From IMG/VR virus record IMGVR_UViG_3300021960_000577, positions 1-22,250 of that record: a stretch of 22,250 bases of DNA, one strand, 5' to 3'. This stretch comes from a virus. Below the pieces are notes generated by a model, which saw only the letters and a program-made list of their open reading frames with translations, ran no database searches and had not been told where the DNA came from. How positions within the stretch are numbered: position 1 is the first letter of the stretch; each line of letters opens with the position of its first letter. A program made the translations under genes and the position numbers. Below, piece after piece: positions 1,044 to 21,469 of this stretch.

Positions 1044-1712
1044 ATGACTTATAGAGAATTAATAAATCAAGTATTAATAAGGCTAAGAGAAGAAACTATA
1101 TCTTCTAATTGGTCTGGAAATATAAATGATAGTAGCACAGTTTCTGATTATCAAAAAGTAATTGGTTCTTTAGTTAATGATACTAAAAGAACTGCTGAGA
1201 CTTATCACGATTGGTTAGTTCTTAGAGAAACTGTTAACGTATCTACAGTAGCAGCTACAAAGAATTATAATTTATCTTCAGGTCAAGAGTTTAAAGTTTT
1301 AGATGTAACAAATAATTCTACAGGAAATAGTTTGTCACCGGTGACACAACAATATCTAAACAGCATTAAGTATCCGACTGACCCTACAGGAGAACCTAAT
1401 CATTATGGTTTTAACGGAGCAGATTCTTCTAATAATCTTAAAGTAGATTTATCGCCTATACCTACAGAAGCACAAACAATATCTTTTGATATAGTTAAAT
1501 ATCAAGATGATTTAACTTTAGCTGCTACAGTATTAAAAATACCTGCTCAACCTATTGTGTTAGGAGCTTGGGCTAGAGCTATAGCAGAACGAGGAGAAGA
1601 CGGAGGAACACAATCAAGTGCTGCTGCTGCGGAAGCAATGGTTGTTTTAAATCAAGCAGTTATGAGAGATAGTGGTAATTCTAAATATGATACTGATTGG
1701 TATGTTGTGTAA
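1044..1712 (+). CDS. Tail tubular protein A-like (T7 gp11 / adaptor)
   Basis: A 222-residue protein starting MTYRELINQVLIRLREE. This helical opening, the length and the position directly before a gp12-like gene match the T7 gp11/P22 gp4-type head-tail adaptor family. Such proteins form a ring under the portal to which the nozzle attaches. The mid region (VTQQYLNSIKY, YGFNG, LSPIPTEAQTISFDIVKYQ) resembles the beta-rich insertion of gp11, which typically ends with helices before the C-terminus. Residues about 97-101 (SLSPVTQ) are encoded by one copy of the repeated 14-bp palindrome, placed in what looks like a loop. The ATG abuts the previous TAG, and the stop overlaps the next ATG (TAATG). Confidence 0.8.
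   Translation: MTYRELINQVLIRLREETISSNWSGNINDSSTVSDYQKVIGSLVNDTKRTAETYHDWLVLRETVNVSTVAATKNYNLSSGQEFKVLDVTNNSTGNSLSPVTQQYLNSIKYPTDPTGEPNHYGFNGADSSNNLKVDLSPIPTEAQTISFDIVKYQDDLTLAATVLKIPAQPIVLGAWARAIAERGEDGGTQSSAAAAEAMVVLNQAVMRDSGNSKYDTDWYVV
1333..1346. repeat. Dispersed 14-bp palindrome, copy 1
   Basis: TGTCACCGGTGACA, a perfect inverted repeat, preceded by TT. It lies inside the tail tubular A gene, where it is read as SLSPVT. The exact 14-mer recurs at 12812, 18395 and 20310, with a one-mismatch copy at 21284. Confidence 0.85.
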
Positions 1713-3316
1713 TGGCTAAACAATTAACAGTACAGCCTTTACCTAATTTTGGTGTAAATGGTTTAAATACTCAAAGCAATCCTAATGCTTTAGACCCTTC
1801 TTTTCTTACTAAGGCTGATAACGTAGTATTAAGAGAGTCTGGAAGAATATCTTTTAGAAAAGGTTTAAAACAAAAAGTAGTTCCAAGTGGTGCAGCTATA
1901 AATTCTATAGTAGAACACAATGATTCTGGAACTAATAAAATATTTGCTAGTCACGGTACTTCTATTTACACAGTTGATTTTACCTCGCCTAATGCTGCTT
2001 TTCCTAGTAGCGGTGCTGATGTTAAACATACTGTTGCTAATAGCACAGGAGATTGGCAGTTTATAAATTTTAACAATAGATTACATTGTTTACACGAAGG
2101 AATTGTACCTCAAAGATATAGTGGTGCAGCAGGCGCAGGCTCTAAATGGGCAGCTTTTGATAATGCTACTAGACCTCCTACCGTAAGTTCAGGTGAATTT
2201 AAGCCTAGTTGTGGCACAGGATTTTATGGTCGTATGTGGGTCGGAGGAGTAGAAGAAGAGAAAGATGTTTTGCATTATTCTGCTTTATTAGACTCTGATG
2301 ATTATACGACATCGAGTGGTGGCGGTTCTTTAGATTTAAAAAAAGTATGGGGAAAGGATGATATTGTAGCTATAGCTCCTTTTTATGGTCAGCTTGCAAT
2401 TTTTGGTAAGAACAACATAGCACTATACGAAAGCCCTGATATAATAGGAAGCATTAAATTAAACGAAGTAATTAAAGGTGTTGGTTGTATAGCTAGAGAT
2501 TCAGTACAAGCAGTCGGAGATGATTTATTATTTATGTCTTCAACTGGACTAAGGTCATTAGCTCGTACTTCAGAAAAAGATAAGGTTCCTTTAATGGATT
2601 TAACACAAAACATTAAAGACACACTAATTAGAAACATAGGGCAAAGCTCAGAAATTAAAAGTGTTTATGTAGAAAACGAAGGAATTTATATTGTTTCTTT
2701 TCCTTCTTTAAATATTAATTATGTTTTTGACTTTAAACATTTTACACCTAACAAAGCACCAAGGATTACTACTTGGTCATTTAGTAATGATAGAGAACCA
2801 TATAGTTTAACATACACTGAATTATATGGTTTGTTAGCAGGACAAAAAGATGGAGGCATAGCAGGATATGAAGGATATTTTGATACTGATTTGGCGTGGG
2901 TTAGTTCAGCAGCCAGCTATACTAATGCTGCTATTACTGCTGATGTGTCTTCTATATGGATACCGCTAACAGAAGGAAGTGTTGCTTCTTTGCTTAAAAA
3001 AATGATACTAGTTTTAGAAGGTGGTTCAGGTGCTACACTTGGTTTACAATGGTATAAAGATTTTAGCATTAATCCAACAAACAGCACAACTATAACTCTA
3101 GCTCCTCCAACTACAGGAACTATAGCTTTGTGGGGTGCTTCTACTTCTTTGTATGGTGCTTCTAAATTTACTCCTGTGTATGGATTAACCGAATATAGAA
3201 CTTCATTAACAGGTAGTGCAAAAACACTAAAATTAAATATGAGTATTATAAGTAATGGTTATGATGCTTCAATACAAGATTTATCAATTTTACATTTACA
3301 AGGGAAAATACGATGA
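1712..3316 (+). CDS. Tail tubular protein B-like / tail nozzle (T7 gp12-like)
   Basis: The start is the ATG at 1712 (TAATG overlap with the previous stop), not an upstream in-frame codon at 1697, giving 534 residues. The N-terminus reads QPLPNFGVNGLNTQSNP and then LTKADNVVLRESGRISFRKG. This 'no-frills start, then ADN...G.I..RKG' pattern is typical of phage nozzle/stabilisation proteins (T7 gp12 or P22 gp10 type), which propagate the tail tube from the adaptor and hold packaged DNA. The rest is beta-rich and low in charge, as expected of a propeller-like nozzle. It is shorter than T7 gp12 (about 790 residues). Order after gp11-like and before fibre-type genes supports the call. The stop overlaps the next start (ATGA). 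Confidence 0.75.
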   Translation: MAKQLTVQPLPNFGVNGLNTQSNPNALDPSFLTKADNVVLRESGRISFRKGLKQKVVPSGAAINSIVEHNDSGTNKIFASHGTSIYTVDFTSPNAAFPSSGADVKHTVANSTGDWQFINFNNRLHCLHEGIVPQRYSGAAGAGSKWAAFDNATRPPTVSSGEFKPSCGTGFYGRMWVGGVEEEKDVLHYSALLDSDDYTTSSGGGSLDLKKVWGKDDIVAIAPFYGQLAIFGKNNIALYESPDIIGSIKLNEVIKGVGCIARDSVQAVGDDLLFMSSTGLRSLARTSEKDKVPLMDLTQNIKDTLIRNIGQSSEIKSVYVENEGIYIVSFPSLNINYVFDFKHFTPNKAPRITTWSFSNDREPYSLTYTELYGLLAGQKDGGIAGYEGYFDTDLAWVSSAASYTNAAITADVSSIWIPLTEGSVASLLKKMILVLEGGSGATLGLQWYKDFSINPTNSTTITLAPPTTGTIALWGASTSLYGASKFTPVYGLTEYRTSLTGSAKTLKLNMSIISNGYDASIQDLSILHLQGKIR

Positions 3317-3705
3317 GTGATTATACAATTGCGGTAGATTGGGCAGGTAAAGATGCTTTGTCTGATTCAAACGCAGCAAAAGTAATATCAGGGGCTGACT
3401 TTAATTCTGAATTTGTAGCAGCTAGAACAGCTATTAACTCTAAAGCTGATTTAAATGGAGATTCTGGAGAAGACTTTGCATCTAATAATGCAACAGTAGC
3501 AGGAACTTTGACTGTAACTGGAATACCTACTATACCTACTGCTGCTACTTCAACAAATACAACACAAGCAGCTAGTACAGCAATGGTACAAGCAGCTATT
3601 GATGCAGATGTGACAACACACGCAGCACTAAGAGCAAGTCAAACTGTCTACGGACACGCTAAGATTTATACATCTGGTGGAGATTTATACATAGTAACTA
3701 CATAA
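3313..3705 (+). CDS. Small tail-associated protein, fibre-connector-like
   Basis: A 130-residue protein. It opens MSDYTIAVDWAGKDAL, followed by GADFNSEFVAARTAINSKADL, then a Thr/Ala-rich region with TVAGTLTVTGIPTIPTAA and a short C-terminal beta segment. 'Gx(D/E)FxxEFxxxxTAINSKADLNG' followed by 'TVTG' repeats is the style of N-terminal parts of phage tail fibres and head decoration proteins in marine phages. Those usually trimerise, with the first part anchoring to the tail. I cannot name a family. The start overlaps the nozzle gene stop by four bases (ATGA). The following gene begins one base after the TAA without its own Shine-Dalgarno, so the two are probably translated together and may form one adhesion device. 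Confidence 0.65.
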   Translation: MSDYTIAVDWAGKDALSDSNAAKVISGADFNSEFVAARTAINSKADLNGDSGEDFASNNATVAGTLTVTGIPTIPTAATSTNTTQAASTAMVQAAIDADVTTHAALRASQTVYGHAKIYTSGGDLYIVTT

Positions 3706-3706
3706 T

Positions 3707-4366
3707 ATGAGCGATATATACTTTAATGGTACTGTGTTAGCCTCTGATGGGAAGGTTAAGTTTAATGGTACTGATATGTCAAATGTGTATTTTAATGGCA
3801 CAAAGATTTGGACATACTACTCAGAAACCGCACAAGCCTTTACAAGTTCCAGCACTTATACTTTAGATGTTGCTGAAACTTCTGTCCAGTACAAACTTTC
3901 TGGTGGAGGAGGCGGAGGTGGTGGTGCGGAAGGTTTTACAGGAGCAACTGCTGGTAGTTCGGGTGGTGATACTATCCTTAAAGTTTTAGATTCAAGTGGC
4001 AATGTAAGGCAAACAATAGCAACTGCTTCTGGCGGTGCTTATGGTCCTTATGGCGGTGGTGATAGAACTCGTAGTGGTGCTAATGATTTTTCAATACCGA
4101 GTGGTTGGGCAAATCCTCCGTGGTCTAGTACAGTTTCAGATGGTGGAACAGGCGCAGCAGGTGCAGGACCAGATAATCGTGCAGGAACAGGCGGAGCAGC
4201 AGGTAGCACAGCTACAGGAACATACACAATCAATGCCGATGGTAACGACCATTCATTACAAATCACTATTGGTGGTGGTGGTGGAAATGGTGGTGCTGGA
4301 GAAGCAGGTCAAAACGCAACATCAGGAAGTAGTGGTGGTGCTTGGTTGTTGTACATAATTAGTTAA
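3707..4366 (+). CDS. Glycine-rich tail tip / receptor-binding protein candidate
   Basis: A 219-residue protein. Residues about 1-36 carry three FNGT repeats (IYFNGTVL, VKFNGTDM, VYFNGTKIW). The centre and C-terminal half are strongly Gly-rich (runs of six to eight Gly, GGAGEAGQ, GGAAGSTATG) and interleaved with short beta segments. Gly-rich proteins of this kind resemble the polyglycine-II sandwich adhesins found at phage fibre tips (T-even gp38 class), which contact the receptor. That role is inference. The gene follows the fibre-connector gene by one base and is followed by a good ribosome binding site for the next gene. Two overlapping ORFs in other frames here are composition shadows. Confidence 0.6.
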   Translation: MSDIYFNGTVLASDGKVKFNGTDMSNVYFNGTKIWTYYSETAQAFTSSSTYTLDVAETSVQYKLSGGGGGGGGAEGFTGATAGSSGGDTILKVLDSSGNVRQTIATASGGAYGPYGGGDRTRSGANDFSIPSGWANPPWSSTVSDGGTGAAGAGPDNRAGTGGAAGSTATGTYTINADGNDHSLQITIGGGGGNGGAGEAGQNATSGSSGGAWLLYIIS

Positions 4367-4379
4367 TTAGGAGATAGAA

Positions 4380-5240
4380 ATGGCATTATTTGCAGGACAA
4401 AATGCAGGCAATAGACAAAACGATATGGCTCGTAGGTACGCTTCCACAAGAACAGGAACAGGACCAAACGATTATGGTTACACGAGTAGAGTAGGAAACT
4501 ACATACAACAGCCAAAAAAGAAATCAACATTTGGTTTTCCTTTAGGTGGATTATTAGGTGGTATGGGTAATTCTGCTAGATACGCAGAAGATGATTACAA
4601 CAGACAAGTAGCTATGAACGATTTAGCATATGAAAGGTCATTACCTTGGGATATTAGTGGTCCTTTAGGCTCTGTTACTTATGATAGAGAAAACAAAACT
4701 ATTACTCAAGAAATGTCTGATGATGCTCGTGGAGTTATGGAAAGATTTCTTGGTAGGTCTGAATCTTTTGGAGATGAGATAAGCACTTACGACCCTATGG
4801 AAATGCAAAAGAATCTCTTTAATCAACAGAGAGGTTTATTTACAGAGGGAGATAATTTAGCGGAGTTAAGAGCTAAAGAACAAGCAATTGCTAGAGGAAC
4901 AGATGATAGCACTGTTAATTATTGGGACGAAAGAGCTAGATTAGATAACATTAGTAGAAGAGATTTAGGTTTACAGAATGACACATTTATGCAGAGCCAA
5001 GCTCTTTTAGATTCACAGATAGCTAGGGAACAAGGATATGCACAAGCAGGATTTAACCTTGCAGGTCAAGCTAATCCTTATTTCTCACCATCAATACAAA
5101 CAGGACAAGGCTCACACACAGCTAAGAATATGGCAGGTATGAGTGCTTCTTCTATGAACTGGGCTGATGCGTTATCAGCTAAATCTGCAGGAAGGTCCAG
5201 TATGTTAGGACAATTTGCATCATCACTATTTAGTGTATAA
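4380..5240 (+). CDS. Putative internal virion protein (gp14-like position)
   Basis: A 286-residue protein preceded by AGGAGATAGAA then ATG. The N-terminal 60 residues are polar, with a Gly/Leu hydrophobic patch at about 50-62 (FGFPLGGLLGGMG). The middle is helical and charged (LFNQQRGLFTEGDNL, ELRAKEQAIARG, DERARLDNISRRDLGLQ). The C-terminus is Ala/Ser-rich, small-residue helix (NLAGQAN..., ADALSAKSAGRSS). This composition fits phage internal core or ejection proteins, and the position after the tail proteins and before two very large proteins matches T7 gp14 in a 14-15-16 set. I have no conserved motif to prove it. The role, ejection into the host envelope at infection, is inferred from synteny. 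Confidence 0.5.
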   Translation: MALFAGQNAGNRQNDMARRYASTRTGTGPNDYGYTSRVGNYIQQPKKKSTFGFPLGGLLGGMGNSARYAEDDYNRQVAMNDLAYERSLPWDISGPLGSVTYDRENKTITQEMSDDARGVMERFLGRSESFGDEISTYDPMEMQKNLFNQQRGLFTEGDNLAELRAKEQAIARGTDDSTVNYWDERARLDNISRRDLGLQNDTFMQSQALLDSQIAREQGYAQAGFNLAGQANPYFSPSIQTGQGSHTAKNMAGMSASSMNWADALSAKSAGRSSMLGQFASSLFSV

Positions 5241-5251
5241 GAGAGGATAAT

Positions 5252-7192
5252 ATGGCAGAAGGAATGTTTCAAGGTATGAGTGGATTTGATGTCGCTTCTA
5301 ATGAAAACGCGGGGATAAGAGATAGAGCTCTTCAGATGGCACAGCTAGGGAGAGGTCGTGTAGCAGTGTATGCTGCAGGTCTAGAAGGCGGTATGATGGC
5401 TCAAGGACTAGCTCGTATGGCGGGAATGAAAACTCCTGAAGAAGAAAAGTCTGAGGCTGTAAATACTATTATGTCTCAAAATGCAAACAGAGACCCTAAT
5501 AGTCCTACAGATTTACTGCACATATCTAGACAGTTTGTAGCTGCAGGTCTTCCTAATTATGCCCAACAGTTTAGAGATAAAGCTAGAGAAGTTGAAGTTA
5601 AAAATACTACAATGGGGCAAACAGATAGAGAACTAGACCAGAGAGATACTAGACAGGCTTTTGATGAGAAAAAATTAACTGCCGATACATCTTATAGAAC
5701 AAGTTCTTTAGAACTACAAGACAAAGACTTAACTTTTAGAACAGAAAAAGAAGAAACGAGAATAAACGAGTTAGCTAAACAGCTTGAACTTAATGCGGAA
5801 GAATTAAAAAGAAAATTAGCTTTAGGTGAGTTCCAAGAAATTGTAGGAAAAGATGGAAACACAGCCCTATATCAAATAACTTCTGATAACGCTGGTAATG
5901 TTTCTATTAAACCAGTAACTATAGATGTTGTACAGGCTACTAGTGGTGGAGGTGCAACTTCTTCTAGTACAACTAACCCTAGTACATCAAGCAGTAATGT
6001 AGGATACCAATCTGATGGAGCTCTTATAACTAAGTATGCTGCTACAGACCCCGCAGAAGAAATAGATGCTGACGCTGACAAAATATACAAAAACTTACAG
6101 ACTCAATATGAGGCTACATTTAAAGACGAACAGTTTATTGGTGAAGGTACTCAATTAGCAGTTCCTCAAACTGGAGAATTTTCTAATCTTGATGCTGTTC
6201 CTAGTGAACTAGACTATATGGTATATGAGGTAATGAAAAGAGCAGAGAGTTACGGCGGTGAAATAGACAGTATGTACGACTTATATATGGGTGCGGGCTC
6301 TGAAGCAATGGAAGCTGTTATGAAAGGCAACGGTTTAGGAAAACTCTGGGAACAGAACAAAACTGAATTTGAAAAATCAGGGGACACTACTCTTTATAGT
6401 ATGGAAGGCAGAGATGGTTTAATCAATGGCGTTCTTAATGGTATTGTTGGTTCACCTATTATGTTTGATGTTAAGTTAACAGAAAATTTAACTGATGAAA
6501 ATAATAATATCATTGCAAAAGCAGGAGAAACTTTTGATTCTGCAATGGCTAGAGTTATGGGTCAAGATATAAGTAGTGCTACTACAAACGCAGAAGGTAA
6601 CATAACTAAATTAGGTGCTCCTGAAAGCACATTTAATTTGTCTGTGGATGCAGTTAGAGGTATCGCTTCAAAACTAATGGAAGACAAAGCATTTGATTTT
6701 CTTCCTGAACTTACAGGAACAGCTCCTAAAGTAGAGCCAAATTATGGCAATCAAAACATAGCAAACCAAACAGTAACTGCTCAAACTATGAATGCTATTG
6801 ATAATAGTGATGTAGTTATGGGAGACACTACAGCATTTGATGAGGTAGTTAAAGAGAATGGGAATATTATAGCAGACACAGTAAAAGACATTAAAAAGTT
6901 TGTCATTAACATTTTAAAACCTAAAGAACACAAAGACTCTGCTCCAGAAAATCCAATTAAATCTGGGTTTGGTTCGGATGCTTGGTCTTTAGGTCTTCTT
7001 AAAACTAAAGTTACTCAGTTTGACACAGCAGAAAAAAATGAGGACGGTAGATATACTTTAAAAATGCCACAATTTATTGAGGTTAAAAACGAAAAGACTA
7101 GAAAGGCTTTTCAAGATTGGAAGTTTAGAAATTTTAATTACTTTCAAAAACAAGGAATCACACTGCCCAACGCAAGAGTAATGCCTAAATAA
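5252..7192 (+). CDS. Putative internal virion / ejection protein (gp15-like position)
   Basis: A 646-residue protein with ribosome binding site AGAGGATAAT before the ATG. Residues 1-60 are Ala/Gly/Met-rich (AAGLEGGMMAQGLARMAGM). Residues about 108-197 are a long charged helix or coiled coil (RDKAREVEVKN ... INELAKQLELNAEELKRKL). Residues about 228-250 are a Gly/Ser/Thr linker. The rest is a mixed globular part ending FQDWKFRNFNYFQKQG. It sits between a small internal protein and a 971-residue protein, as gp15 does in T7-like cores. No enzymatic motif seen. A structural or DNA-ejection role is inferred from position and composition only. Confidence 0.5.
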   Translation: MAEGMFQGMSGFDVASNENAGIRDRALQMAQLGRGRVAVYAAGLEGGMMAQGLARMAGMKTPEEEKSEAVNTIMSQNANRDPNSPTDLLHISRQFVAAGLPNYAQQFRDKAREVEVKNTTMGQTDRELDQRDTRQAFDEKKLTADTSYRTSSLELQDKDLTFRTEKEETRINELAKQLELNAEELKRKLALGEFQEIVGKDGNTALYQITSDNAGNVSIKPVTIDVVQATSGGGATSSSTTNPSTSSSNVGYQSDGALITKYAATDPAEEIDADADKIYKNLQTQYEATFKDEQFIGEGTQLAVPQTGEFSNLDAVPSELDYMVYEVMKRAESYGGEIDSMYDLYMGAGSEAMEAVMKGNGLGKLWEQNKTEFEKSGDTTLYSMEGRDGLINGVLNGIVGSPIMFDVKLTENLTDENNNIIAKAGETFDSAMARVMGQDISSATTNAEGNITKLGAPESTFNLSVDAVRGIASKLMEDKAFDFLPELTGTAPKVEPNYGNQNIANQTVTAQTMNAIDNSDVVMGDTTAFDEVVKENGNIIADTVKDIKKFVINILKPKEHKDSAPENPIKSGFGSDAWSLGLLKTKVTQFDTAEKNEDGRYTLKMPQFIEVKNEKTRKAFQDWKFRNFNYFQKQGITLPNARVMPK

Positions 7193-7203
7193 AAGGAGTC
7201 AAC

Positions 7204-10119
7204 TTGGCAACTATAGACTTATCAAAGTTTAAAGATGGAGAGGAGCAACCTAAAACTAACACTATAAGTTTACAAGGTTTCGCACAAACACCCTCTTTAG
7301 GACAAACATATGAACAAGATTCAGTAGCGGACAAGGCTGCATTTGCTGCACGCCTAGGGGCTGCTGATACCTATCGTGGAATCAAACAATTATTTAACAT
7401 ACAAGAAGAAGAGATGGCTGAAGATATGGCTAAGCTCAATGAGTACATATCTAACCCTGAATACGGAGGTACTATACTTGCAGCTTATACTGCAGGTTTA
7501 ATAGGAGACCCTGTAGGTTGGGTCATACCGGGTATGAAAGCTAAGAATCTTTGGAGTGCTGCTAAAGCAGGCGCTATGGTTGGTGCTCTGTCATCACCTC
7601 TTGGCTATGTAGATGAAGCAGAAGGACAAACCAGAGTATCTAATATGGCTTATGGTACTGTAGGCGGTGGCGTTCTTTCTCCTGCTATGTTTAAATTTAC
7701 AAACTCAATGTTACCTGCTTTGAAAAAAGGTTATGCTGACTTAGGTGTATCAATAGATACTGGGAAAGTAGCTAGTGATTTAGGTTTTATATCTAAAGCT
7801 ACATCTACAGTGGGTGCTAATGTCGGTGCTCCTATATACTCTCAAATGAAAAGGGGAGGAGAAGCAATCAAACAAAGTTCTTTAGGTCAGAGTTTTGGTA
7901 AATACTTTATTGATAACTTTGGTCTTCCAAAAGAGTATGTCAATGTTAAGATGAATAGAAGACAAACAGAACAACAGTGGGCTTCTAGATTTGATGAGGT
8001 TCTATCTAAATATTCTCAACTTAGTTTAGCAGATGACAAACTATTGTATAAGATTCTTACTGGTGAAGAGAGTAACATTCCCGGTAATCTAAAAGACTTA
8101 ACTAAAGAAGGTAGACAGCTTGTCGATGAAATAGGACAAGAGCTAGTTGATTTAAAAATACTAGACAAAGGAATATATAAAGAGAACAAAGGTAAATATT
8201 TATATCGTTCTTATGAAAAACATCAGACTCCTTTTATGAAAAAAAGAAGGCAGGCTGAAAAAGAAATAAAAGTTTTTGGTGAAGAGTTTATGCGTAGGGG
8301 TGAAACCAAAACTATATCTCAAGGTGTTTTAGATAAACATTTAAAAGACGGTTGGAAAGTTATTGAGGGAAGTGAAAGTCTAGGTAGAAAAACTGTAAGA
8401 GTAAATCGAGATTGGTCCCCTGAAGATAGAGCTAAGATGGGAGAAGTATTAAGTGCAGGATTTGCTATGGCTAAGACTGGTAACTTAATGACTAACGATA
8501 TAGCCACGTTTAAATTCTATGATGATATAAATAAGATGGTTATAGACGGAGAGAAAGTAGTTTATGATTCTCTTAATGATGTTTTAGACCCAGATAATTA
8601 TAGAAGAATACCTACAACTTCTGTTAAAGGAACACAAGTAAAAGAGTTTGGTTCTCTTGCAGGTAAGTATGTTCCTAAAGAAGTATACACAGACTTAACT
8701 ACAGCCAACGCTTACAAGAGATGGAACAGAGGTGATGGAAAGTTTGGTGGGCTTACTAAGTTTCACCATAAAGCACTACAGTTTTGGAAGAGAGGTAAGA
8801 CTACTCTTAATCCTACAGTACATACAAACAATGTAGGCTCTAATTTTATATTATACGATTTGCTAGACGGTGATTGGAAACAACTTAGGAGTGCTGGAGG
8901 TGATTTCTTTAGAGCTAAATCTAAAGGAGAGAAGTCAGAGGAATTTAAATTAGCAGAATCATTAGGTGTCTTTGATGCTGATATGATGTCTAGAGAATTA
9001 ACAGATTATGAGAACTCTATATTTAAGAAGTATATGAGTATGAAAAAGAAAGATGATGTTGAGTTTTCAAGTATGCTACAACGAGGGTGGGATAGAGTAA
9101 AAGGGTTTGCTAAGCAAACACCTATGGATACTTTATATCAAGTAGAAGACCAAGTGTTTAGATTAGGTGCGTTTAAAACTCAACTAGCTAATGGTGCTAC
9201 GCCGGATGAAGCTGCAAGATTTGCTAGAAGAGCTATGCTAGACTATGAAATATCAGCCCCAGGAATTAGAATGCTTAGAGAATCAGCCCTACCATTCATA
9301 GCATACACATATAGGGTTGCTCCTATACTAGCTGAGACTGCTCTTAAGAGACCTTGGAAGCTGGCTAAGTGGGGTGCTATACTTCACGGTGCTAATATGG
9401 TCGGTCAAGATATATCTCCGGGAGACTATGAGAAAGAACGCAAGTATCAGAAAGAATTAAATATGGGTTATGACTTAAGCTCTATAGGTATGCCGGGTGT
9501 GGCTAACACACTTATTAAAGTTCCTAGAAAAGACAAGAGCCAATACTTAGATGCTACTAGGTACATACCGGGTGGTGATATACTAGACATTAAAAACAGT
9601 ACGGGAATAACTATACCTTTCTTACCTGCTCCACTACAACCATCCTTTGGTGCTATCGGAAGTGCTGCTAAAATTGCTACTGGATTCGATACTTTTAGTG
9701 CATCTAAAATGCCGGGTGTTGGCTCTGGTGTGTTTGACATATCCGCAGAAGCTAGACTTAATGCTGTAGCTAAAGAGTTTATGCCTATGTACCATCAATA
9801 CAATAAACTTAATGCTACTATAGCTGCTAATGGTCAAAGTCATCCTACTAAAGATGATGCCACATTAAAAGAAGCAGTTCTAAATTTAATACCGGGCATT
9901 AAACTTAAGACTTATGATAAGAAACAGATGAAAAAGTTTAAGATGCGTGTGGGTATGAAGTATCAGAACCAGATGGAGTCCTTAACTAAACTTCTAAGTA
10001 CTTCTTATAAAGATTATAAAGGTGGTAGGATAAGTAAAGAAAGCTATGAAAAAGAATCAGCAAGGATAAAGTCTGAGCTTAAAAAAATACAGAAGAAAGT
10101 TAGAGAGGCTCTTAATTAA
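7204..10119 (+). CDS. Large internal virion / DNA-ejection protein (971 aa)
   Basis: The start is TTG at 7204, supported by AAGGAGTCAAC immediately upstream; the product reads MATIDLSKFKDGEEQ. It has a Gly/Ala-rich amphipathic stretch at about 88-135 (GTILAAYTAGLIGDPVGW, AAKAGAMVGALSSPLGY) that could insert into membranes, then a long helical body. The Lys-rich C-terminal 65 residues look like a coiled coil. Size, strand and position match the largest internal core/ejection protein of T7-like phages (gp16), but the murein hydrolase that T7 fuses to gp16 is encoded here by the next, separate gene. The body resembles large multi-domain 'polyvalent' phage proteins. No catalytic motif seen. The TAA overlaps the next ATG (TAATG). 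Confidence 0.6.
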   Translation: MATIDLSKFKDGEEQPKTNTISLQGFAQTPSLGQTYEQDSVADKAAFAARLGAADTYRGIKQLFNIQEEEMAEDMAKLNEYISNPEYGGTILAAYTAGLIGDPVGWVIPGMKAKNLWSAAKAGAMVGALSSPLGYVDEAEGQTRVSNMAYGTVGGGVLSPAMFKFTNSMLPALKKGYADLGVSIDTGKVASDLGFISKATSTVGANVGAPIYSQMKRGGEAIKQSSLGQSFGKYFIDNFGLPKEYVNVKMNRRQTEQQWASRFDEVLSKYSQLSLADDKLLYKILTGEESNIPGNLKDLTKEGRQLVDEIGQELVDLKILDKGIYKENKGKYLYRSYEKHQTPFMKKRRQAEKEIKVFGEEFMRRGETKTISQGVLDKHLKDGWKVIEGSESLGRKTVRVNRDWSPEDRAKMGEVLSAGFAMAKTGNLMTNDIATFKFYDDINKMVIDGEKVVYDSLNDVLDPDNYRRIPTTSVKGTQVKEFGSLAGKYVPKEVYTDLTTANAYKRWNRGDGKFGGLTKFHHKALQFWKRGKTTLNPTVHTNNVGSNFILYDLLDGDWKQLRSAGGDFFRAKSKGEKSEEFKLAESLGVFDADMMSRELTDYENSIFKKYMSMKKKDDVEFSSMLQRGWDRVKGFAKQTPMDTLYQVEDQVFRLGAFKTQLANGATPDEAARFARRAMLDYEISAPGIRMLRESALPFIAYTYRVAPILAETALKRPWKLAKWGAILHGANMVGQDISPGDYEKERKYQKELNMGYDLSSIGMPGVANTLIKVPRKDKSQYLDATRYIPGGDILDIKNSTGITIPFLPAPLQPSFGAIGSAAKIATGFDTFSASKMPGVGSGVFDISAEARLNAVAKEFMPMYHQYNKLNATIAANGQSHPTKDDATLKEAVLNLIPGIKLKTYDKKQMKKFKMRVGMKYQNQMESLTKLLSTSYKDYKGGRISKESYEKESARIKSELKKIQKKVREALN

Positions 10120-12770: not shown

Positions 12771-12920
12771 TTACTTTCTCCAGTCTGATTTCCATAATCG
12801 GGGGTTAAGTTTGTCACCGGTGACAGATTTCTTGTCACTAAGTAACTTCTTGTATAGCTTGGAAGTCCCATCCATACGGACGAGACCCCAAGTATTTTTA
12901 GGTGGTTTACTTTCCGCCAC
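12771..12920 (-). CDS. 49-residue hypothetical protein
   Basis: A short ORF that fills the gap between the two-helix membrane protein and the nuclease gene. It starts at GTG (12918-12920) inside the last codons of the upstream gene (14-nt overlap), reads VAESKPPKNTWGLVRMDG and ends SDWRK, with the stop immediately followed by the nuclease GTG. The product is basic, rich in Lys and Trp, with no membrane segment or recognised domain. The middle SVTGDK is encoded by a palindrome copy. Upstream SD is weak, so initiation probably depends on coupling. Support is tight packing on both sides and lack of stops; function unknown. Confidence 0.5.
   Translation of the reverse strand: MAESKPPKNTWGLVRMDGTSKLYKKLLSDKKSVTGDKLNPRLWKSDWRK
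12812..12825. repeat. Dispersed 14-bp palindrome, copy 2
   Basis: TGTCACCGGTGACA, exact, preceded by TT as at copies 1, 3 and 4. It lies in the 49-residue gene, read on the - strand as SVTGDK. Confidence 0.85.
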
Positions 12921-13146: not shown

Positions 13147-13197
13147 ATTTTACTCCCTTATTAATGTAAAACAATTGGCTAATGTATAGCCACCTTA

Positions 13198-15305: not shown

Positions 15306-15520
15306 TCATCCTCCAGTGGGTCGATTTCGATGTTCACCATTTTCTTTCCATCGTCATCTAAGTAAGTATTATATTTAAGTCTTCCTTGTCTGTGCATAAG
15401 TATCGCATCAGTTATTCCTCTGTCATAACATTTAGTACCGTGTCTCCACAATAAGAACCCTCCTATTGTAAGCAACGCTACCATCAGTAAGACAAAGTTC
15501 TCAGTCGGTATCATCAGCAT
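15302..15520 (-). CDS. Small membrane-anchored protein upstream of the RNR
   Basis: I prefer the ATG at 15520 (GAGGAG with 7-nt spacing) over an in-frame TTG at 15526. The product has 72 residues: an N-terminal hydrophobic helix (about residues 8-24, FVLLMVALLTIGGFLLW), then a basic turn RHGTKCYDRG, and a small polar domain (DAILMHRQGRLKYNTYLDDD, then GKKMVNIEI). This 'membrane helix plus DGKKM.NIEI' form resembles small uncharacterised proteins common in marine phage genomes (recollection, not checked). The stop overlaps the RNR ATG region (ATGA). Function unknown. Topology suggests one TM helix with a cytoplasmic C-terminus. Confidence 0.6.
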   Translation of the reverse strand: MLMIPTENFVLLMVALLTIGGFLLWRHGTKCYDRGITDAILMHRQGRLKYNTYLDDDGKKMVNIEIDPLEDE

Positions 15521-15668
15521 CGTCAAACTCCTCTCGTTTATCTAATAGTTTATCTTCGAACTCGTGTAAGATATCTTCCGTTGTTATGTCCAATACCTCA
15601 CACAGAGTACAAGGGTCTATGGCTTCCTGAACTATGCGTTCCTTTAATTCATTTAATGTTAGTGCCAT
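15501..15668 (-). CDS. Small acidic protein (55 residues)
   Basis: An ORF with a strong ribosome binding site (GAGGGAGGGCAGT before the ATG). It starts inside the 3' end of the DUF3310-like gene (20-nt overlap) and ends inside the membrane-protein gene (20-nt overlap). The product begins MALTLNELKERIVQEAIDPC and ends EEFDDADDTD. It has one short helical domain with Cys20/Cys23, then an acidic tail. The 'LCEVLDITTEDILHEFEDKL' region resembles a helix-turn-helix-like motif seen in other phage accessory proteins, but the call is weak. The gene is supported by the strong RBS and by tiling with both neighbours. Function unknown. Confidence 0.6.
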   Translation of the reverse strand: MALTLNELKERIVQEAIDPCTLCEVLDITTEDILHEFEDKLLDKREEFDDADDTD

Positions 15669-15870
15669 ACTGCCCTCCCTCGTGTTCTATAAGTTTATCT
15701 AAGAACCACCGAGCTTTCTTTAAATCTTCTATCCCATTTTTAAATCGCCATCGGCAGATATACTTTGTGATAGATGCGGTTAGGTAATCCATATCTTGGT
15801 CTAAGATAAAATCTATGACCTCAATATTACCCTGCTTATAATGATTTGGATTTATGTTATCTTCGTCCAC
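15649..15870 (-). CDS. DUF3310-like protein (T7 gp1.7-related?)
   Basis: A 73-residue protein starting at GTG, 8 nt after AAGGAG. It carries the DUF3310 signature: NPNHYKQGNIEVIDFI (residues 7-22), then a helix with LTASITKYICRWRFKNG (residues 30-46) and EDLKKARWFLDKLIEHE (residues 48-64). This is a short all-helical phage domain. I recall it being linked to T7 gp1.7, a nucleotide kinase that phosphorylates dTMP and dGMP, so a role in nucleotide supply is plausible next to the RNR, but the enzymatic part of gp1.7 is longer. Overlaps the endonuclease stop by 19 nt and the next gene by 20 nt. Function in this phage is uncertain. Confidence 0.75.
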   Translation of the reverse strand: MDEDNINPNHYKQGNIEVIDFILDQDMDYLTASITKYICRWRFKNGIEDLKKARWFLDKLIEHEGGQYGTNIK

Positions 15871-16217
15871 TTCTTAAGCTCCTTAATTTCTTTAGTTGAA
15901 AATATTTTAATATCATACTTATCACACCACTGTCGATAAGTAATCTTATTACCCTTGGCTACCTTAGAGTCTGGTCGTGGCATTAAGAAGATTAAATCCT
16001 TGCCTTCAAATCTCATCTGCTCAGCAATTGATTTGTACTTCTGTCTGTCACCACTACGGAAGAACCCTTTAACCTCTATGTGATACTTACCCTTAACAAA
16101 GTCAGGGGTGTAGTTCTTTCGTATCGTATAGGCTATCCTACAGGGCTCATACTTCCACTCTCTGCCTAGTGCTTCCGCACATTCTTTCTCTAGCTTACTC
16201 CGAAACTTTGTTGCCAT
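15852..16217 (-). CDS. T7 endonuclease I-like Holliday junction resolvase (gp3-like)
   Basis: A 121-residue protein. The PD-(D/E)XK core matches T7 gp3: Glu10 in SKLEKE; NYTPDF with Asp39; YHIEVKG with Glu48 and Lys50; then RSGDRQKYKSI (residues 54-64). In T7 these carry the metal site that cuts four-way junctions and branched DNA, freeing replicated concatemers and degrading host DNA. Gene size and order (polymerase, exonuclease, endonuclease) also match the T7 class. The shared helix that T7 uses for domain-swapped dimers appears in the N-terminal part. Starts at ATG inside the 3' end of the exonuclease gene (23-nt overlap). Confidence 0.8.
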   Translation of the reverse strand: MATKFRSKLEKECAEALGREWKYEPCRIAYTIRKNYTPDFVKGKYHIEVKGFFRSGDRQKYKSIAEQMRFEGKDLIFLMPRPDSKVAKGNKITYRQWCDKYDIKIFSTKEIKELKKWTKIT

Positions 16218-17079
16218 CTTTATCTACCTCTATAACTTGTGGTAAGTTCTCAACTTTAACTAAGTATCTCGGTCCGTTAGAGTACAGGAATGTTCTAAGC
16301 TCATCGCCCCAACACTCGTGCTTGTATGAACAGTAGCTACAACCTACAGGTAACTTCATATTACCAGACTTACCATCAGGTATAGGTTCGTAGCATCTCT
16401 TAGGTGGCTTAGATAACTTAACTATATTCTTGATAGATTTAATTCTGTCTACTATCGAGAAGAAGTTTAGCTTAGTCCAGTACCACTGAGATTCATCAGC
16501 CATATCATACTTGAGGTATGTTAGATGTCCGTTGGTCTTATCCATAACTAACCAACCAACATCCTTTGTATTCTCTGCGTGAGCATAGCCTTTGATTTGG
16601 TCTATGTATCCAAAGGGGTCATCATTAATGAGTGAACCATCCTTGAATTTCTTAAACCCATAAGGTGAAGCTGACTTAACATCTGTTAGTACACCATCAA
16701 TCTTACAGTCCATAGAACCTTTGATACCATTTACTTCTACTTGCTTCTGTTCGTGTGTCACATCGTGACCAGAGAGTTTAGTAAGTGCTAGTATCATTTC
16801 TTCAATCAAATGACCATAGAGGAACTTGATTCTAGTGTGAGGCATAAGCTCCTCACCTTTGTATCCATTATAAGAATACCACAGTTGTCTATCCTTCTTA
16901 CCGATGTTAGACATTCTAAGTTTACGCTTATCAAACTTACTCTCTGTGATATTGTTTCGTAATATCTGCTTCACATTCTCACCGAAGTCATTTATTACTT
17001 GCTCGACAGGTACACCATCTGCTATTTCTTTGGTGTCTATCATACGATATATATCGTCTACTAGTGTGTCTGTTGCCAA
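16195..17079 (-). CDS. RecB/Cas4-family exonuclease with C-terminal Cys cluster (gp6-like role)
   Basis: A 294-residue protein with a TTG start after AAGGTAGG, overlapping the polymerase gene end by 19 nt. The nuclease motifs follow the RecB/Cas4 order: LYGHLIEE (His90, Glu93/94); GSMDCKIDG (Asp124); then LTDVKSAS with Asp133 and Lys135; and QIKGYAHA (Q161-x3-Y165). Four cysteines (C229, C247, C250, C256; GCSYCSYKHECW) in the C-terminal part can bind a metal or an Fe-S cluster, as in Cas4/AddB-type nucleases. In T7-like phages a 5'-3' exonuclease removes RNA primers and processes ends; this gene sits in that slot. The exact polarity is not visible from sequence. Confidence 0.8.
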   Translation of the reverse strand: MATDTLVDDIYRMIDTKEIADGVPVEQVINDFGENVKQILRNNITESKFDKRKLRMSNIGKKDRQLWYSYNGYKGEELMPHTRIKFLYGHLIEEMILALTKLSGHDVTHEQKQVEVNGIKGSMDCKIDGVLTDVKSASPYGFKKFKDGSLINDDPFGYIDQIKGYAHAENTKDVGWLVMDKTNGHLTYLKYDMADESQWYWTKLNFFSIVDRIKSIKNIVKLSKPPKRCYEPIPDGKSGNMKLPVGCSYCSYKHECWGDELRTFLYSNGPRYLVKVENLPQVIEVDKDGNKVSE

Positions 17080-18842
17080 GTTTTACCTACCTTGTATTCA
17101 CCGTCCAGTGGACAGTTTAGATTAAAAGTTTTACCTGCTTTGATGATAGCTCCTACCGCTAGACCACCGAAGAAATCAGCTTGGTCATCTCTGACCTCAC
17201 ACTGAAACTCATCGTGCACATTGAGTACAAACTTGTAGTCTATGTTGTACTGCTTAGCATATGTATCTAGTAACACCAACGCTTTCTTCATTATAACCGC
17301 ACCTGCACTCTGTAGTAGAGTATTTAATGCTGAATGTTCTGAGCGTATGTGTAGCTTCCTACCATCTAGTCCTGTTACCCACCCCTTCTTACTGGAGTCT
17401 GCAACCTTACTACGCAAGTGTTTCAACGCGGGAGTATTATCAAGAAAGTTCTTCTTAAGTATACGACCACGCTTTGCACCACCTCCTGCTACCTCGCCTA
17501 TCTTAGTATCTCCTGCTCCGTATAGGAACGCATAGATAAAAGTCTTGGCTTGGTCTCTAGTCTGTAGTCCTGCTGACTTCTGATTAGCACTGTGTATATC
17601 ACCGTTGAGTATCTCATCAGTGTATGCCTTATCATCCATATAGTGGGCGAGCATTCTAAGCTCTAGTCCACTAGCATCACAACCTACCAGACTGTAGCCA
17701 TCAGGCACGGTCCATAGGTTACGACAGTCAGCACCATAACCACCCTCGAAACCCCACAAGATGCTACCATCTCTACCGTGTCTAGTCGCAGGGACTTGGG
17801 CACAGTTAGGTTTAGAGTGTGTCATTCTACCGGTGACTGCACCGCAAGGGTTTACCCTACCGTGTACTCGACCAGTATGCTCATTGATAGCTTCTACCCA
17901 ACTCTTTACCATAGCTATACGCTTGGTCAGTGTAAGGTAATCTACAATCAATTGTGCTTCGGGTATCTTAACAGTCTTAAGTACCTTCTCATCTACGATA
18001 GGGTTTCCCTTCTCAGTAAATGATTTAGGTTTCCAACCGAAGTGCTGGAGGTACTTAGCTATCTGTTGTCGAGACCCAAGATTAAACTCTGGGTACTCAT
18101 AGTATCCCCATTCTAAATATGTATTCCAATCAGCACCTCTATCCAACTGTGCTTGATACCTCTTAGATACACTACCATCCTTGTTGTGTGTCTTATCACC
18201 GGGATGCTTCAGGTTTATCCACACAGGCAGAGGTTCAAATTTCTTGTGTACCTCGTCCTCTATGTCTAGTACCTTCTCCTTCATCTCAGCTAGTAGTTCA
18301 TAAGCACGCTCCTCATTGAGTATCATACCGTTGTCGGTCTGCTCTCTGATGATGTCGGCAGTCTTATGTTCTATCTCTACTGCTAGTGAATCTTTGTCAC
18401 CGGTGACAAGATGGTGATACAAAGCCTTAGTTACCCGCACATCCTGTTGGCAGTAAGTTAACATCTCGTGGCTATACTCTTCCCAACCACCTTGATAGTC
18501 ATCTTTGTAATTGCCTAGTCTCTCACCCCAAGACCTTAAACTATGTCCACCATCAAGGCTAGGGTTATGTAGTCTGCTAAGTACGAGAGTGTCCCGTAGA
18601 TTAAAAGCCCAATCCATCCCAGTAAGCCTACGCAAAATAGGAACATCAAAATTAATAATGTTGTGTCCCACAAGAGTATCGACATCTTCTGATGCCAACC
18701 ATTTTCGAAAAAGTCCATTGGCTTCTCCTCCTATAAAATTGTAAACAGTAGACTCACCATCATCAAGCATCGCACAAATGCAATGTACTTTGGTAGCGTT
18801 GAGTCCATCAGTTTCTATGTCAAAAAAAGCTGTGTTCATCAT
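17061..18842 (-). CDS. Family A DNA polymerase with 3'-5' exonuclease (T7 gp5-like)
   Basis: A 593-residue replicative polymerase. The proofreading exonuclease has FDIETDGL (Asp8, Glu10), GHNIINFD (Asp66) and YCQQDVRVT (Asp134). The polymerase has motif A LVGCDASGLELRM (Asp389), motif B RDQAKTFIYAFLYGAG (Arg429, Lys433, Tyr437) and motif C LNVHDEFQ (543-545, HDE). It is shorter than T7 gp5 (704 residues), so part of the insert regions, perhaps the thioredoxin-binding loop, is reduced. Tyr437 aligns with T7 Tyr526/E. coli Phe762. The upstream gene overlaps it by 23 nt. SD GGAGGT lies 2 nt before the first ATG and 5 nt before the second, so the second (18839) may be used. Confidence 0.95.
   Translation of the reverse strand: MMNTAFFDIETDGLNATKVHCICAMLDDGESTVYNFIGGEANGLFRKWLASEDVDTLVGHNIINFDVPILRRLTGMDWAFNLRDTLVLSRLHNPSLDGGHSLRSWGERLGNYKDDYQGGWEEYSHEMLTYCQQDVRVTKALYHHLVTGDKDSLAVEIEHKTADIIREQTDNGMILNEERAYELLAEMKEKVLDIEDEVHKKFEPLPVWINLKHPGDKTHNKDGSVSKRYQAQLDRGADWNTYLEWGYYEYPEFNLGSRQQIAKYLQHFGWKPKSFTEKGNPIVDEKVLKTVKIPEAQLIVDYLTLTKRIAMVKSWVEAINEHTGRVHGRVNPCGAVTGRMTHSKPNCAQVPATRHGRDGSILWGFEGGYGADCRNLWTVPDGYSLVGCDASGLELRMLAHYMDDKAYTDEILNGDIHSANQKSAGLQTRDQAKTFIYAFLYGAGDTKIGEVAGGGAKRGRILKKNFLDNTPALKHLRSKVADSSKKGWVTGLDGRKLHIRSEHSALNTLLQSAGAVIMKKALVLLDTYAKQYNIDYKFVLNVHDEFQCEVRDDQADFFGGLAVGAIIKAGKTFNLNCPLDGEYKVGKTWQQTH
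18395..18408. repeat. Dispersed 14-bp palindrome, copy 3
   Basis: TGTCACCGGTGACA, exact; with flanking T and A it is a 16-bp palindrome. In the polymerase gene it encodes VTGDK (residues 146-150), just after the third exonuclease motif, in the segment leading to the polymerase domain. Confidence 0.85.
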
Positions 18843-20472
18843 CTACCTCCGTTAATCTTCCGGTGTCACTGTCATACTGTAGCTTACAAGCGGGACCAGT
18901 AAGACCTGAGAACCTATTCTTTATAACCCTTAGTGTAGTCTGGTTACGAATGATAGGGTCATCGTCCTGTTGATTACGCTCTAATCCTATTACAATGTCA
19001 GACAACTGAGCAATTGCTGCGGAACCTCGAAGCTCTGAGAGGCTCACCTGTCCACCTTCTTCGTGAGCCCTGCCTTGTGGTCTCCTAAGATGAGATATAA
19101 GGAACAAGCCTACGCCAGTCTCCTGTACTATCTTACGGAGCTTAGTCATAATGGCATCAATCGCCTTACGCTCATCAGCTATACCGTCTTGGTCACTGAC
19201 TACGATAGACAAGTGGTCCAATACAATCCACTGACAATCATAGGATTTAGCATAGGTTCTAATGACATTAAGCAGTGAGTCCTCTGACATACTACCGAAG
19301 TGGTCATAGAAGAACACATTCTTATCACCAACTGACTTCTTCCACAGTGCTTTCTTATCCGAATCACTCAGCTCTCTTTCGTACTGAGGTATATGGATAG
19401 GAGCATTAGCTTCGATAGACATCAAGCCTTTAACAGTACGCTCGATGGATTCTTCCAAGTGAATGATAGCTAGGTTATCATCAGTGTTGTTAAGTATGTA
19501 AGACTCTAGTTCCTTAACGACACTAGTCTTACCCATACCAGAGCCACTGGTGATAGTTACTAGCTCTTTCGCTCTGAATCCATAAGTCAAAGTGTTAAGA
19601 CCTTGCCACGGATAGTCGACAGTAAGTAGGTTCTCATCCTTAAGTAGATGTTCCCAAGTATCCTTACCTCTGATGATACCTGCCGGAGTGTAAGACTCAG
19701 CAGACCACCAAGCATTGGTGAACTCCTTGACCTTTCCGTTCACTAGCATATCACTAGCGTCCTTCATAGGTAGCTTGCACACCTTGAGCTTACCAACAGA
19801 TATAATATCTTGACAGGCTTTCACCGCATCAAACCCTGCTTGGTCTTGGTCGAAGCACAGCACCACATTATCAAACGACTCGATGTATTCTAGATTGTCT
19901 TTGATATCTCGTGACGCAGAAGACGCCCCGTTCTTAAGGGAGACCACCTGCCACTTGCCATCGAACATTTCTGAAATCGAGAGGGCGTCAATTTCACCTT
20001 CACAGATAGTCAGATACTTACCACCGGAGCGGTTAGCATTTTGTCCGAACAGACCAGAGCCTTTGTTCGTTCCTATTATTTGAAACTCTTTGGTTTCGAC
20101 AGTTCTCTCTTTATAGCCGAGTAGCCTGTTGCTCTCGTTAGAGTCGTAGTATGGATAGTAATGTTTCTCTATCTTACCGGTCTTGTCGTAACCTACAGTC
20201 ACACCAAACTTAGATGTGATGTTAGATGATATGCGTCTGTCTTTAATTGACGCACCAGATACACCTCTCGGTGTGATTGTCTGCATAACTGATACCTCCT
20301 CATAATCTTTGTCACCGGTGACACTCTTTTGATAGTGACCACAGGCGTTACAATAACCGTGACCATCAGAATAGATAGCTAGGTTATCACCTGCTCTGTC
20401 CCCACCTGTATCTCTACAGGCAGGGCAGGGCTTATGCTCTACAAAAGTAGAATGATTATGCGAAGAACTCAC
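18820..20472 (-). CDS. Bifunctional DNA primase-helicase (T7 gp4-like)
   Basis: A 550-residue protein (T7 gp4: 566). The start is GTG, overlapping the SSB stop region by 17 nt. There is an N-terminal zinc site, Cys16/Cys19 (CPACRDTGG) and Cys41/Cys44 (YCNACGH), which recognises the priming sequence. The TOPRIM primase has YLTICEGEIDAL (Glu158/Glu160) and VLCFDQDQAG (Asp208, Asp210). The RecA-like helicase has Walker A GSGMGKTS (310-317), Walker B QWIVLDHLS (Asp419), LFLISHLRRP with His461, and SLSELRGSAAIAQL. The C-terminus is acidic and ends EHSFF, like the terminal Phe tail of gp4 that contacts polymerase. A palindrome copy encodes SVTGDK in the linker after the zinc domain. Confidence 0.95.
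   Translation of the reverse strand: MSSSHNHSTFVEHKPCPACRDTGGDRAGDNLAIYSDGHGYCNACGHYQKSVTGDKDYEEVSVMQTITPRGVSGASIKDRRISSNITSKFGVTVGYDKTGKIEKHYYPYYDSNESNRLLGYKERTVETKEFQIIGTNKGSGLFGQNANRSGGKYLTICEGEIDALSISEMFDGKWQVVSLKNGASSASRDIKDNLEYIESFDNVVLCFDQDQAGFDAVKACQDIISVGKLKVCKLPMKDASDMLVNGKVKEFTNAWWSAESYTPAGIIRGKDTWEHLLKDENLLTVDYPWQGLNTLTYGFRAKELVTITSGSGMGKTSVVKELESYILNNTDDNLAIIHLEESIERTVKGLMSIEANAPIHIPQYERELSDSDKKALWKKSVGDKNVFFYDHFGSMSEDSLLNVIRTYAKSYDCQWIVLDHLSIVVSDQDGIADERKAIDAIMTKLRKIVQETGVGLFLISHLRRPQGRAHEEGGQVSLSELRGSAAIAQLSDIVIGLERNQQDDDPIIRNQTTLRVIKNRFSGLTGPACKLQYDSDTGRLTEVDDEHSFF
20310..20323. repeat. Dispersed 14-bp palindrome, copy 4
   Basis: TGTCACCGGTGACA, exact, preceded by TT as at copies 1-3. 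Read as SVTGDK (primase residues 50-55), in the linker between zinc domain and TOPRIM domain. Confidence 0.85.
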
Positions 20473-20866
20473 TCGTCTCAGAGTCTGCAGATTTGTACCC
20501 TTCGGTACGCTTAAGTACCTTTACTGCGGTCAAGTAAGTAGCTACCCCGTGTTGTGGGTGCTCTTGTCCTGCTTTCCATAGTACCTGTACTTCGCTTTCA
20601 GCTCCAAAATCGTGTCCGATTGATTCGCCATCATCAGCCATCTTCACCATATCAAAAGACAACGGATACTTTGTAGAAAACTTACGAGCCTTGTAAGACC
20701 CTCCATCTTCTGTCTGAATGGTGCGAACCTTAACACCTGCTGACTCTAGTGCTTTGGCTTCTTTATCATCAACAGAGACAGTAAGTGTGTACTTACCGGT
20801 ATCCTCACCGTTGAATTTTTCTGTACTGTCTAGATAGACATACTTTGCTATACCTTTAGTTATCAT
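20456..20866 (-). CDS. ssDNA-binding protein (T7 gp2.5-like)
   Basis: A 136-residue protein, first gene of the replication cluster. Beta-rich segments (GKYTLTVSVDD, AGVKVRTIQTED, YKARKFSTKYPLSF, SEVQVLWKAG, VATYLTAVKVLK) fit an OB fold, followed by a short acidic tail ending DSETSEFFA. T7 gp2.5 and E. coli SSB also end in an acidic tail with a terminal aromatic residue that recruits polymerase and helicase. It is shorter than gp2.5 (232 residues). Position directly before the primase-helicase supports the call. The ATG follows GAGG with 7-nt spacing, and the start sits only 20 nt after a strong terminator hairpin (20887-20927), so expression is likely controlled there. Confidence 0.75.
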   Translation of the reverse strand: MITKGIAKYVYLDSTEKFNGEDTGKYTLTVSVDDKEAKALESAGVKVRTIQTEDGGSYKARKFSTKYPLSFDMVKMADDGESIGHDFGAESEVQVLWKAGQEHPQHGVATYLTAVKVLKRTEGYKSADSETSEFFA

Positions 20867-20886
20867 AGTTTTTCCTCGGAGCCCTG

Positions 20887-20927
20887 AAAAAAAAGACTGC
20901 TGTGACGGACTCTAAATCACAACAGCC
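20887..20927 (-). terminator. Rho-independent terminator between promoter and SSB start
   Basis: Read on the - strand, an 11-bp stem (GGCTGTTGTGA, 20927-20917, pairs with TCACAGCAGTC, 20905-20895, with two G-U pairs) encloses an 11-nt loop. It is followed by eight T (20894-20887). It stands 20 nt before the SSB start codon, which suggests attenuation rather than simple termination. Confidence 0.8.
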
Positions 20928-20988
20928 AAACTACTTTAGACTCAACTAAAGTGATAATTATTATGGTTATCTCTTTAATTGAATCTAT
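20887..20988 (-). ncRNA. Putative leader RNA or small RNA upstream of SSB
   Basis: Between the zinc-ribbon gene and the SSB gene lies a 143-bp gap without an ORF. A promoter at 20995-21023 would start an RNA near 20988. Within this RNA, CTTTAG and CTAAAG (20934-20951) can pair around a 6-nt loop, and a terminator follows at 20887-20927. An RNA of about 100 nt would result, either a free small RNA or a leader read through to SSB when the terminator is overridden. Transcript ends and function are inferred. Confidence 0.4.
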
Positions 20989-20994
20989 AGTAAT

Positions 20995-21023
20995 ATTTTA
21001 AACTATTCCTCACCCAATGTCAA
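20995..21023 (-). promoter_or_regulatory. Sigma-70-type promoter driving the replication cluster leader
   Basis: TTGACA (21018-21023 on the - strand) is separated by exactly 17 nt from TAAAAT (20995-21000), one mismatch from consensus TATAAT. The -35 element lies in the last codons of the zinc-ribbon gene. It would let host RNA polymerase transcribe the replication cluster independently of the early genes. The spacing and both hexamers are near-ideal. Confidence 0.65.
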
Positions 21024-21189
21024 TAGTAATATCTTCTTTTTTTAGTACCTCATCATCATCTAAATAAGAATAAGGATTGGAGTGGTATCTACAGACACCA
21101 CACAAGTCTAGATATTGTGTTCTATCAACAGGGTCCTTTGCCTTAGACTCCCATTCAGTGAGCAAGGCGTCACAACATTTACATCGCAT
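21010..21189 (-). CDS. Small zinc-ribbon-like protein
   Basis: I prefer the ATG at 21189, which has AGGAGG 6 nt upstream, over the in-frame GTG at 21204. It overlaps the previous gene stop. The product has 59 residues: MRCKCCDALLTEWESK with Cys3, Cys5 and Cys6, then LCGVCRYHS with two further Cys, forming a CxxC pair. This arrangement is expected of a small zinc ribbon; the tail is acidic. Similar proteins occur in T4- and T7-like marine phages (recollection, not checked). Could bind DNA, RNA or a protein partner. It is the last early gene before the promoter and terminator region, and its final codons contain the -35 element. Specific function unknown. Confidence 0.65.
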   Translation of the reverse strand: MRCKCCDALLTEWESKAKDPVDRTQYLDLCGVCRYHSNPYSYLDDDEVLKKEDITIDIG

Positions 21190-21469
21190 CGAAATCCTCC
21201 TCACTTAGTATGTCTTTATTCTCATAGGTGATAGCAGTGCCATCATCATTGTAGAATGGTAAGTCTTCGTTAGGTTCATAATCTGTCACTGGTGACAAAC
21301 TTTCTTCCCTACCAATAGACCAGTTAGGGTCTTTCATAGAGTGTATTCTAGCATCAATCTCTGTCATACCTTTAGCCACACAGTTGCCTTCACCGTCAGT
21401 CACAAAATATGTGTACTTCTGGTCTTCATATATCTCAGCCAATCTACTTATCAGTGGTTTCTTGTGCAT
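21179..21469 (-). CDS. Hypothetical protein (96 residues)
   Basis: A product with MHKKPLISRLAEIYEDQKYT at the start, then YFVTDGEGNCVAKGMTEIDA, a typical small alpha/beta segment, and a long acidic, probably disordered C-terminal part (about residues 55-96). The ATG has GAGGAG about 8 nt upstream and overlaps the coiled-coil gene by 26 nt. Its linker SLSPVTDYE is encoded by the one-mismatch palindrome copy. I recognise no family. As part of the small early gene set it may be a host-takeover factor, which is a guess based on location only. Confidence 0.55.
   Translation of the reverse strand: MHKKPLISRLAEIYEDQKYTYFVTDGEGNCVAKGMTEIDARIHSMKDPNWSIGREESLSPVTDYEPNEDLPFYNDDGTAITYENKDILSEEDFDAM
21284..21297. 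repeat. Dispersed 14-bp palindrome, copy 5 (one mismatch)
   Basis: TGTCACTGGTGACA, differing from the exact copies by one base in the centre. On the - strand it is TTTGTCACCAGTGACA, so the same TTTGTCACC left part is kept, and it reads SLSPVT. Confidence 0.75.

Follow-up and report, generated by a model that had tools for sequence, protein, structure and literature searches.

Dispersed palindromes in uncultured T7-like marine podoviruses match an early phage gene in class and in presence

A 14-base palindrome, TGTCACCGGTGACA, recurs inside the genes of an uncultured T7-like marine podovirus, of which the window analysed here (the whole 22,250-base stretch of IMG/VR record IMGVR_UViG_3300021960_000577) is a fragment. 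Among relatives of this phage the palindrome exists in several classes, and the class carried by a genome matches one early gene, here called gene 1. We think it probable, judging from sequence comparisons, that a dimeric protein encoded by the phage, most likely the gene 1 product, binds the palindromes and regulates early transcription. Among the four hypotheses raised in the original prediction, this match makes an operator for a dimeric regulator the best fit, and a modification site is conceivable but fits less well. Dispersed repressor sites are known from a few temperate phages, and the layout described here is a comparable one in an uncultured marine group.

A scan of the window finds exact copies of the 14-mer at positions 1333, 12812, 18395 and 20310, and a fifth copy at 21284 carries a single mismatch that is restricted to the centre. 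Beyond these five, no window sequence lies within three mismatches of the 14-mer, which ranks first among the repeated 14-mers of the window. None of 100 dinucleotide shuffles reached five matches at three or fewer mismatches (shuffle mean 0.49), and the fivefold repetition originally described is therefore confirmed as far above expectation. As had also been claimed, all copies fall within genes, are read in two different frames and share a TT flank.

The palindromes, which are assigned to neither strand and belong to the class called A below, are distributed as follows. The copy at 1333-1346 is in a putative tail adaptor gene (1044-1712, plus strand) and is the sole late-operon site; it is kept in 19 class-A contigs, with zero difference in the motif versus 12% in the flanks. 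The copy at 12812-12825 is close to where two operons converge, in a gene for a protein of only 49 amino acids (KNTWGLVRMDGTSKLY...SVTGDKLNPRLWKSDWRK; 12771-12920, minus strand) that falls under the usual ORF cut-off and is conserved in relatives, with homologues in G001, G002, G004, G007 and G009. The copy at 18395-18408 is near codon 144 of a family A (DNA polymerase I-type) gene (17061-18842, minus strand) that matches phage DNA polymerases by tblastn. The copy at 20310-20323 occupies the linker after the zinc domain in the primase-helicase gene (18820-20472, minus strand), and the centre variant, TGTCACTGGTGACA, is at 21284-21297 in an early gene for a protein of 96 amino acids (21179-21469, minus strand).

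The window carries genes for the tail together with a replication module of T7-like type. For its polymerase and primase, identity to isolates does not exceed 48%, the nearest being Pelagibacter phages HTVC103P and HTVC104P, and IMG/VR holds many relatives that are closer. The replication module (primase-helicase, DNA polymerase, endonuclease and RNR) is held in common with T7-like podoviruses of the HMO-2011 type and Autographiviridae relatives, but the dispersed palindrome system is missing from the five sequenced T7-like podovirus relatives that were checked. No match to PF00589 or PF13614 was found in G001-G004, G006, G007 or G010, with positive controls. Near-complete relatives thus show no integrase or ParA-type gene, and the group carries no recognised lysogeny genes. 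No ORF for a phage RNA polymerase was seen in G002, and a search of bacterial genomes for a host link found no relative.

When 117 distinct contigs were searched de novo and without bias for inverted repeats that recur, five palindrome classes emerged: A (TGTCAC-CR-GTGACA), B (TGACAC-CG-GTGTCA), C (GTTCAC-CG-GTGAAC), D (GTTAAA-NN-TTTAAC) and E (CATAACA-N-TGTTATG). None of 117 simulated contigs held three or more copies of any inverted repeat. Classes A through D are found at the same codons of homologous genes, including 45 polymerase and 46 primase homologues that carry a palindrome of class A, B, C or D, and homologues of the 49-codon gene that carry class A, B or D. Class E belongs to a more distant group with its own early-region layout, where most sites surround the early genes or fall at the SSB-primase junction. 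There are, then, at least four interchangeable classes at fixed positions and a fifth further away, normally with one class per genome. Near-matches in class-A contigs are strikingly uniform, with 130 of 132 varying, if at all, at the two centre bases only, and in classes B and D the centre occurs in both orientations. One class-E contig (L214, 1-140) also has tandem copies of a unit of about 22 bp, TGATATACAATCTATGGACCAG, just upstream of its first class-E site.

The near-complete relatives G001, G002 and G003 carry exactly eight class-A sites each at homologous places: three are found around the first early genes, while the 96-codon gene, the primase, the polymerase, the 49-codon gene and the tail adaptor contain a single site each. 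The excess of the motif in relatives, which the original prediction had proposed to look for, is therefore present. Seven of the eight sites in G002 are in its early operon, although this operon spans only roughly one third of the genome (binomial 0.002), and the six sites of G019 (class D) all lie inside one 12.6-kb genome part. This crowding makes a packaging signal, another of the functions originally suggested, unlikely. The ends of G003 hold two non-identical copies of the small and large terminase genes (L236, 261-1929; L237, 18092-19341), which is probably a misassembly.

The original prediction also held that the constraint acts on DNA, and relatives bear this out in that another palindrome occurs at the same codons and alters the peptide (VTGD, DTGV, FTGE or VKHLTF). 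The primase-linker peptide is HYQK-SVTGDK in class A, HYQK-DDTGVN in class B, HYEK-KFTGEQ in class C and HYEK-KVKHLTF in class D. Diversity is near zero in the motif versus 5-24% in the flanks, third codon positions included, and in the 96-codon gene twelve contigs have the class-A palindrome in frame 1 and four have it in frame 2; the relatives of the window thus use either frame in one homologous gene. Frozen synonymous positions, near-zero diversity and the use of two frames together indicate that the sites are conserved as DNA. The contrary outcome named in advance, VTGDK or LSPVT kept with varied codons, did not appear, since the peptides change with class. Selection on the peptide is ruled out by the frozen synonymous positions, the two frames and the class-dependent peptides. 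The primase proteins of G005 (class B) and L129 (class C) are identical over 430 residues and have different palindromes. We regard these genes as a clear example of an overlapping putative DNA-binding site that dictates protein sequence.

Just downstream of the primase site in the window is a sequence resembling a ribosome-binding site, GAGGAGG, with an in-frame ATG (20284-20301, minus strand). The same pair follows closely behind the primase site in classes A through C. It is possible that this is an internal start for a helicase without the zinc domain, like gene 4B of T7.

Gene 1, which evolves fast, is the first early gene (170-220 amino acids) and is located between the first two sites. 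It is absent from the window, whose type is read from its own sites and from the near-identical relative G003, where gene 1 is at 36885-37448. Gene 1 proteins are 61% identical within a class versus 38% between classes, a wider gap than in any other gene family that occurs in many contigs. In the family shared by classes A and B, 22 positions split A from B, whereas the two alternative ways of grouping these four subgroups give 10 and 4; 21 of the 22 are within the first 130 residues. Profile comparison shows the A/B and D proteins to be homologous (probability 89, pairwise E 2e-6), and no homology to the other classes was detected for the class-E gene 1.

The match between gene 1 and the sites is close. 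Among contigs that are related, and hence not independent samples, the cognate class accounts for 76 of 76 sites within 600 bp of gene 1 and for 69 of 73 sites beyond 1.5 kb, and none of 10,000 label permutations equalled this match. An IMG/VR search with gene 1 alone brought in further contigs, all of which have the predicted class on both sides of the gene. Presence and absence agree as well: of the 18 contigs that cover the stretch from TerS to SSB/primase, fifteen have gene 1, each with 4-8 cognate sites, and the three that lack it (G010, L188 and L216) have zero sites. The primases of G008 and L188 are 99.5% identical over their last 1,290 bases, outside the linker, yet gene 1 and the class-D site are both present in G008 and both missing from L188. 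These genomes offer many natural protein-site pairs for specificity-switch studies. In the early region of the site-less G010 a different palindrome, AGTAAGGCCTTACT, occurs twice (L247, 3772-4055).

The four distant sites of non-cognate class come from three genomes. Sites of two or three classes are carried by G006 (L241/L242), L049, L167, L142 and L076; in L049 (898-5394), for example, class A is found early and in the polymerase, and class B in the region of the 96-codon gene and in the primase. From their sequences, such genomes look like recent recombinants between specificity types.

Gene 1 gives no significant Pfam or PHROG match and has no recognised HTH, and none of the isolates searched carries it. 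A fold search with its structural model (pLDDT 82) returned no PDB match and one unnamed viral protein, A0A516M4L5 (E 5e-4), whereas the class-E model (pLDDT 45) is too poor for use. The protein is a candidate for a new DNA-binding family. Sites 2 and 3 enclose early gene 2 (L237, 16174-16773), which codes for a DUF7178 protein in class A; class B has a homologue of it at this position, and class D has an unrelated protein.

Sites 1 and 2 have predicted sigma70-type promoters about 15-40 bp downstream, serving early genes 1 and 2. These promoters are mostly strong in classes A and B, where a terminator also lies ahead of site 2, and some class-D genomes have no clear promoter behind site 2. 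Strong promoters follow these two sites alone, and most of the later sites have no promoter downstream. This mixture of promoter-linked and promoter-less sites resembles the operators and stoperators of mycobacteriophage L5, which leads us to propose damping at both initiation and elongation. The gene 1 product would accumulate early, bind the palindromes as a dimer and damp initiation at the promoter-linked sites, while protein bound at sites within genes would block elongating RNA polymerase in the manner of a stoperator. Each lineage would keep one protein-site specificity, as with immunity types, and class switching between close relatives would be the expected product of competition between specificity types. 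We infer dimer binding, repression, roadblocking and superinfection effects from sequence, and the system provides a testable case of superinfection competition among lytic phages. The broader proposition is that virulent marine podoviruses have dispersed palindromic operators, immunity-like types and a new family of DNA-binding regulators, with sites written into replication-gene coding sequence and proteins that change with type; we consider the case for it to be about evenly balanced.

The sites might instead organise or tether the phage genome, as in Noc/NBS, ParB/parS or MatP/matS, with gene 1 coding for a bridging or membrane-tethering protein. The Bacillus protein Noc, a ParB-like chromosomal protein that affects cell division, binds about 70 scattered palindromic NBS sites (PMC4331003). 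Invariant 14-bp palindromes that are scattered mostly in genes resemble these sites, as would a single protein binding a single palindrome sequence, and sites within genes that lack promoters would suit such a role. However, gene 1 itself bears no resemblance to Noc and has no ParB- or CTPase-like family match, and the sites crowd into the early operon (seven of eight, and six of six in G019), with two at early promoters. We therefore regard genome organisation as a rather unlikely function.

Somewhat less probable still, in our opinion, is that gene 1 encodes an activator, or an antitermination or processivity factor, working at the palindromes. Sites 1 and 2 are positioned upstream of the -35 element, where activators are as common as repressors, with their centres some 60-75 bp before the predicted starts, a spacing like that of class I activators. 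However, the promoters that follow are often already near consensus at -35 and -10, and most of the remaining sites have no downstream promoter on which an activator could work.

A host protein, or a host restriction or defence factor, that differs between hosts might also bind the sites. This is very unlikely given that the class tracks a phage gene, presence and absence included, and differs among closely related phages. We give even less credence to the palindromes functioning as RNA hairpins in transcripts. Every palindrome change also compensates the stem, and the stability of the D1 hairpin somewhat exceeds that of shuffles (z -2.5), but class A and B sites show no such advantage over shuffled sequence (z -1.0 to 0.1), G-U variants are absent from the arms, and a single sequence class per genome is not required by selection on a stem. 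Finally, repeated insertion of a tiny mobile palindrome into genes, as had been suggested, can be virtually dismissed: site-bearing and site-less primases do differ by a 12-bp indel, but the places are homologous across classes A through D while the sequences are class-specific, and there are no scattered unshared insertions.

Regulation by the gene 1 product has its closest parallel in mycobacteriophage L5 and its Cluster A relatives, which are temperate and carry 20-30 asymmetric, directional 13-bp sites per genome that are bound by a monomeric repressor with a two-domain HTH (PMC9283540, PMC6550527). Near-identical sites are numerous and dispersed in both systems; some stand at early promoters, the majority have no promoter, and in both the site consensus diverges among relatives together with the specificity of the repressor (here gene 1). 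The marine phages differ in having only about 6-8 sites per genome, in lacking recognised lysogeny genes, and in that gene 1 matches no HTH family whereas the Cluster A repressor has an HTH. Rather than being asymmetric and fixed in orientation, the marine sites are palindromic, with asymmetry possible only at the centre. Most have no promoter, but many are inside coding sequence rather than in short intergenic regions, where most L5 sites lie.

The C1 repressor of phage P1, a temperate plasmid prophage, recognises 22 dispersed operators that are 17 bp long and asymmetric (PMC8546580). The likeness is in a regulator made immediately after infection and in operators spread widely over the genome, although gene 1 shows no sequence relation to C1, in keeping with its lack of any family match. 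Pseudoalteromonas phage Slicky01, one of the five sequenced relatives checked, carries four CTTACA-N3-TGTAAG inverted repeats within 2 kb, in the early region only (L292, 32824-34768), and these may be a local variant on this theme.
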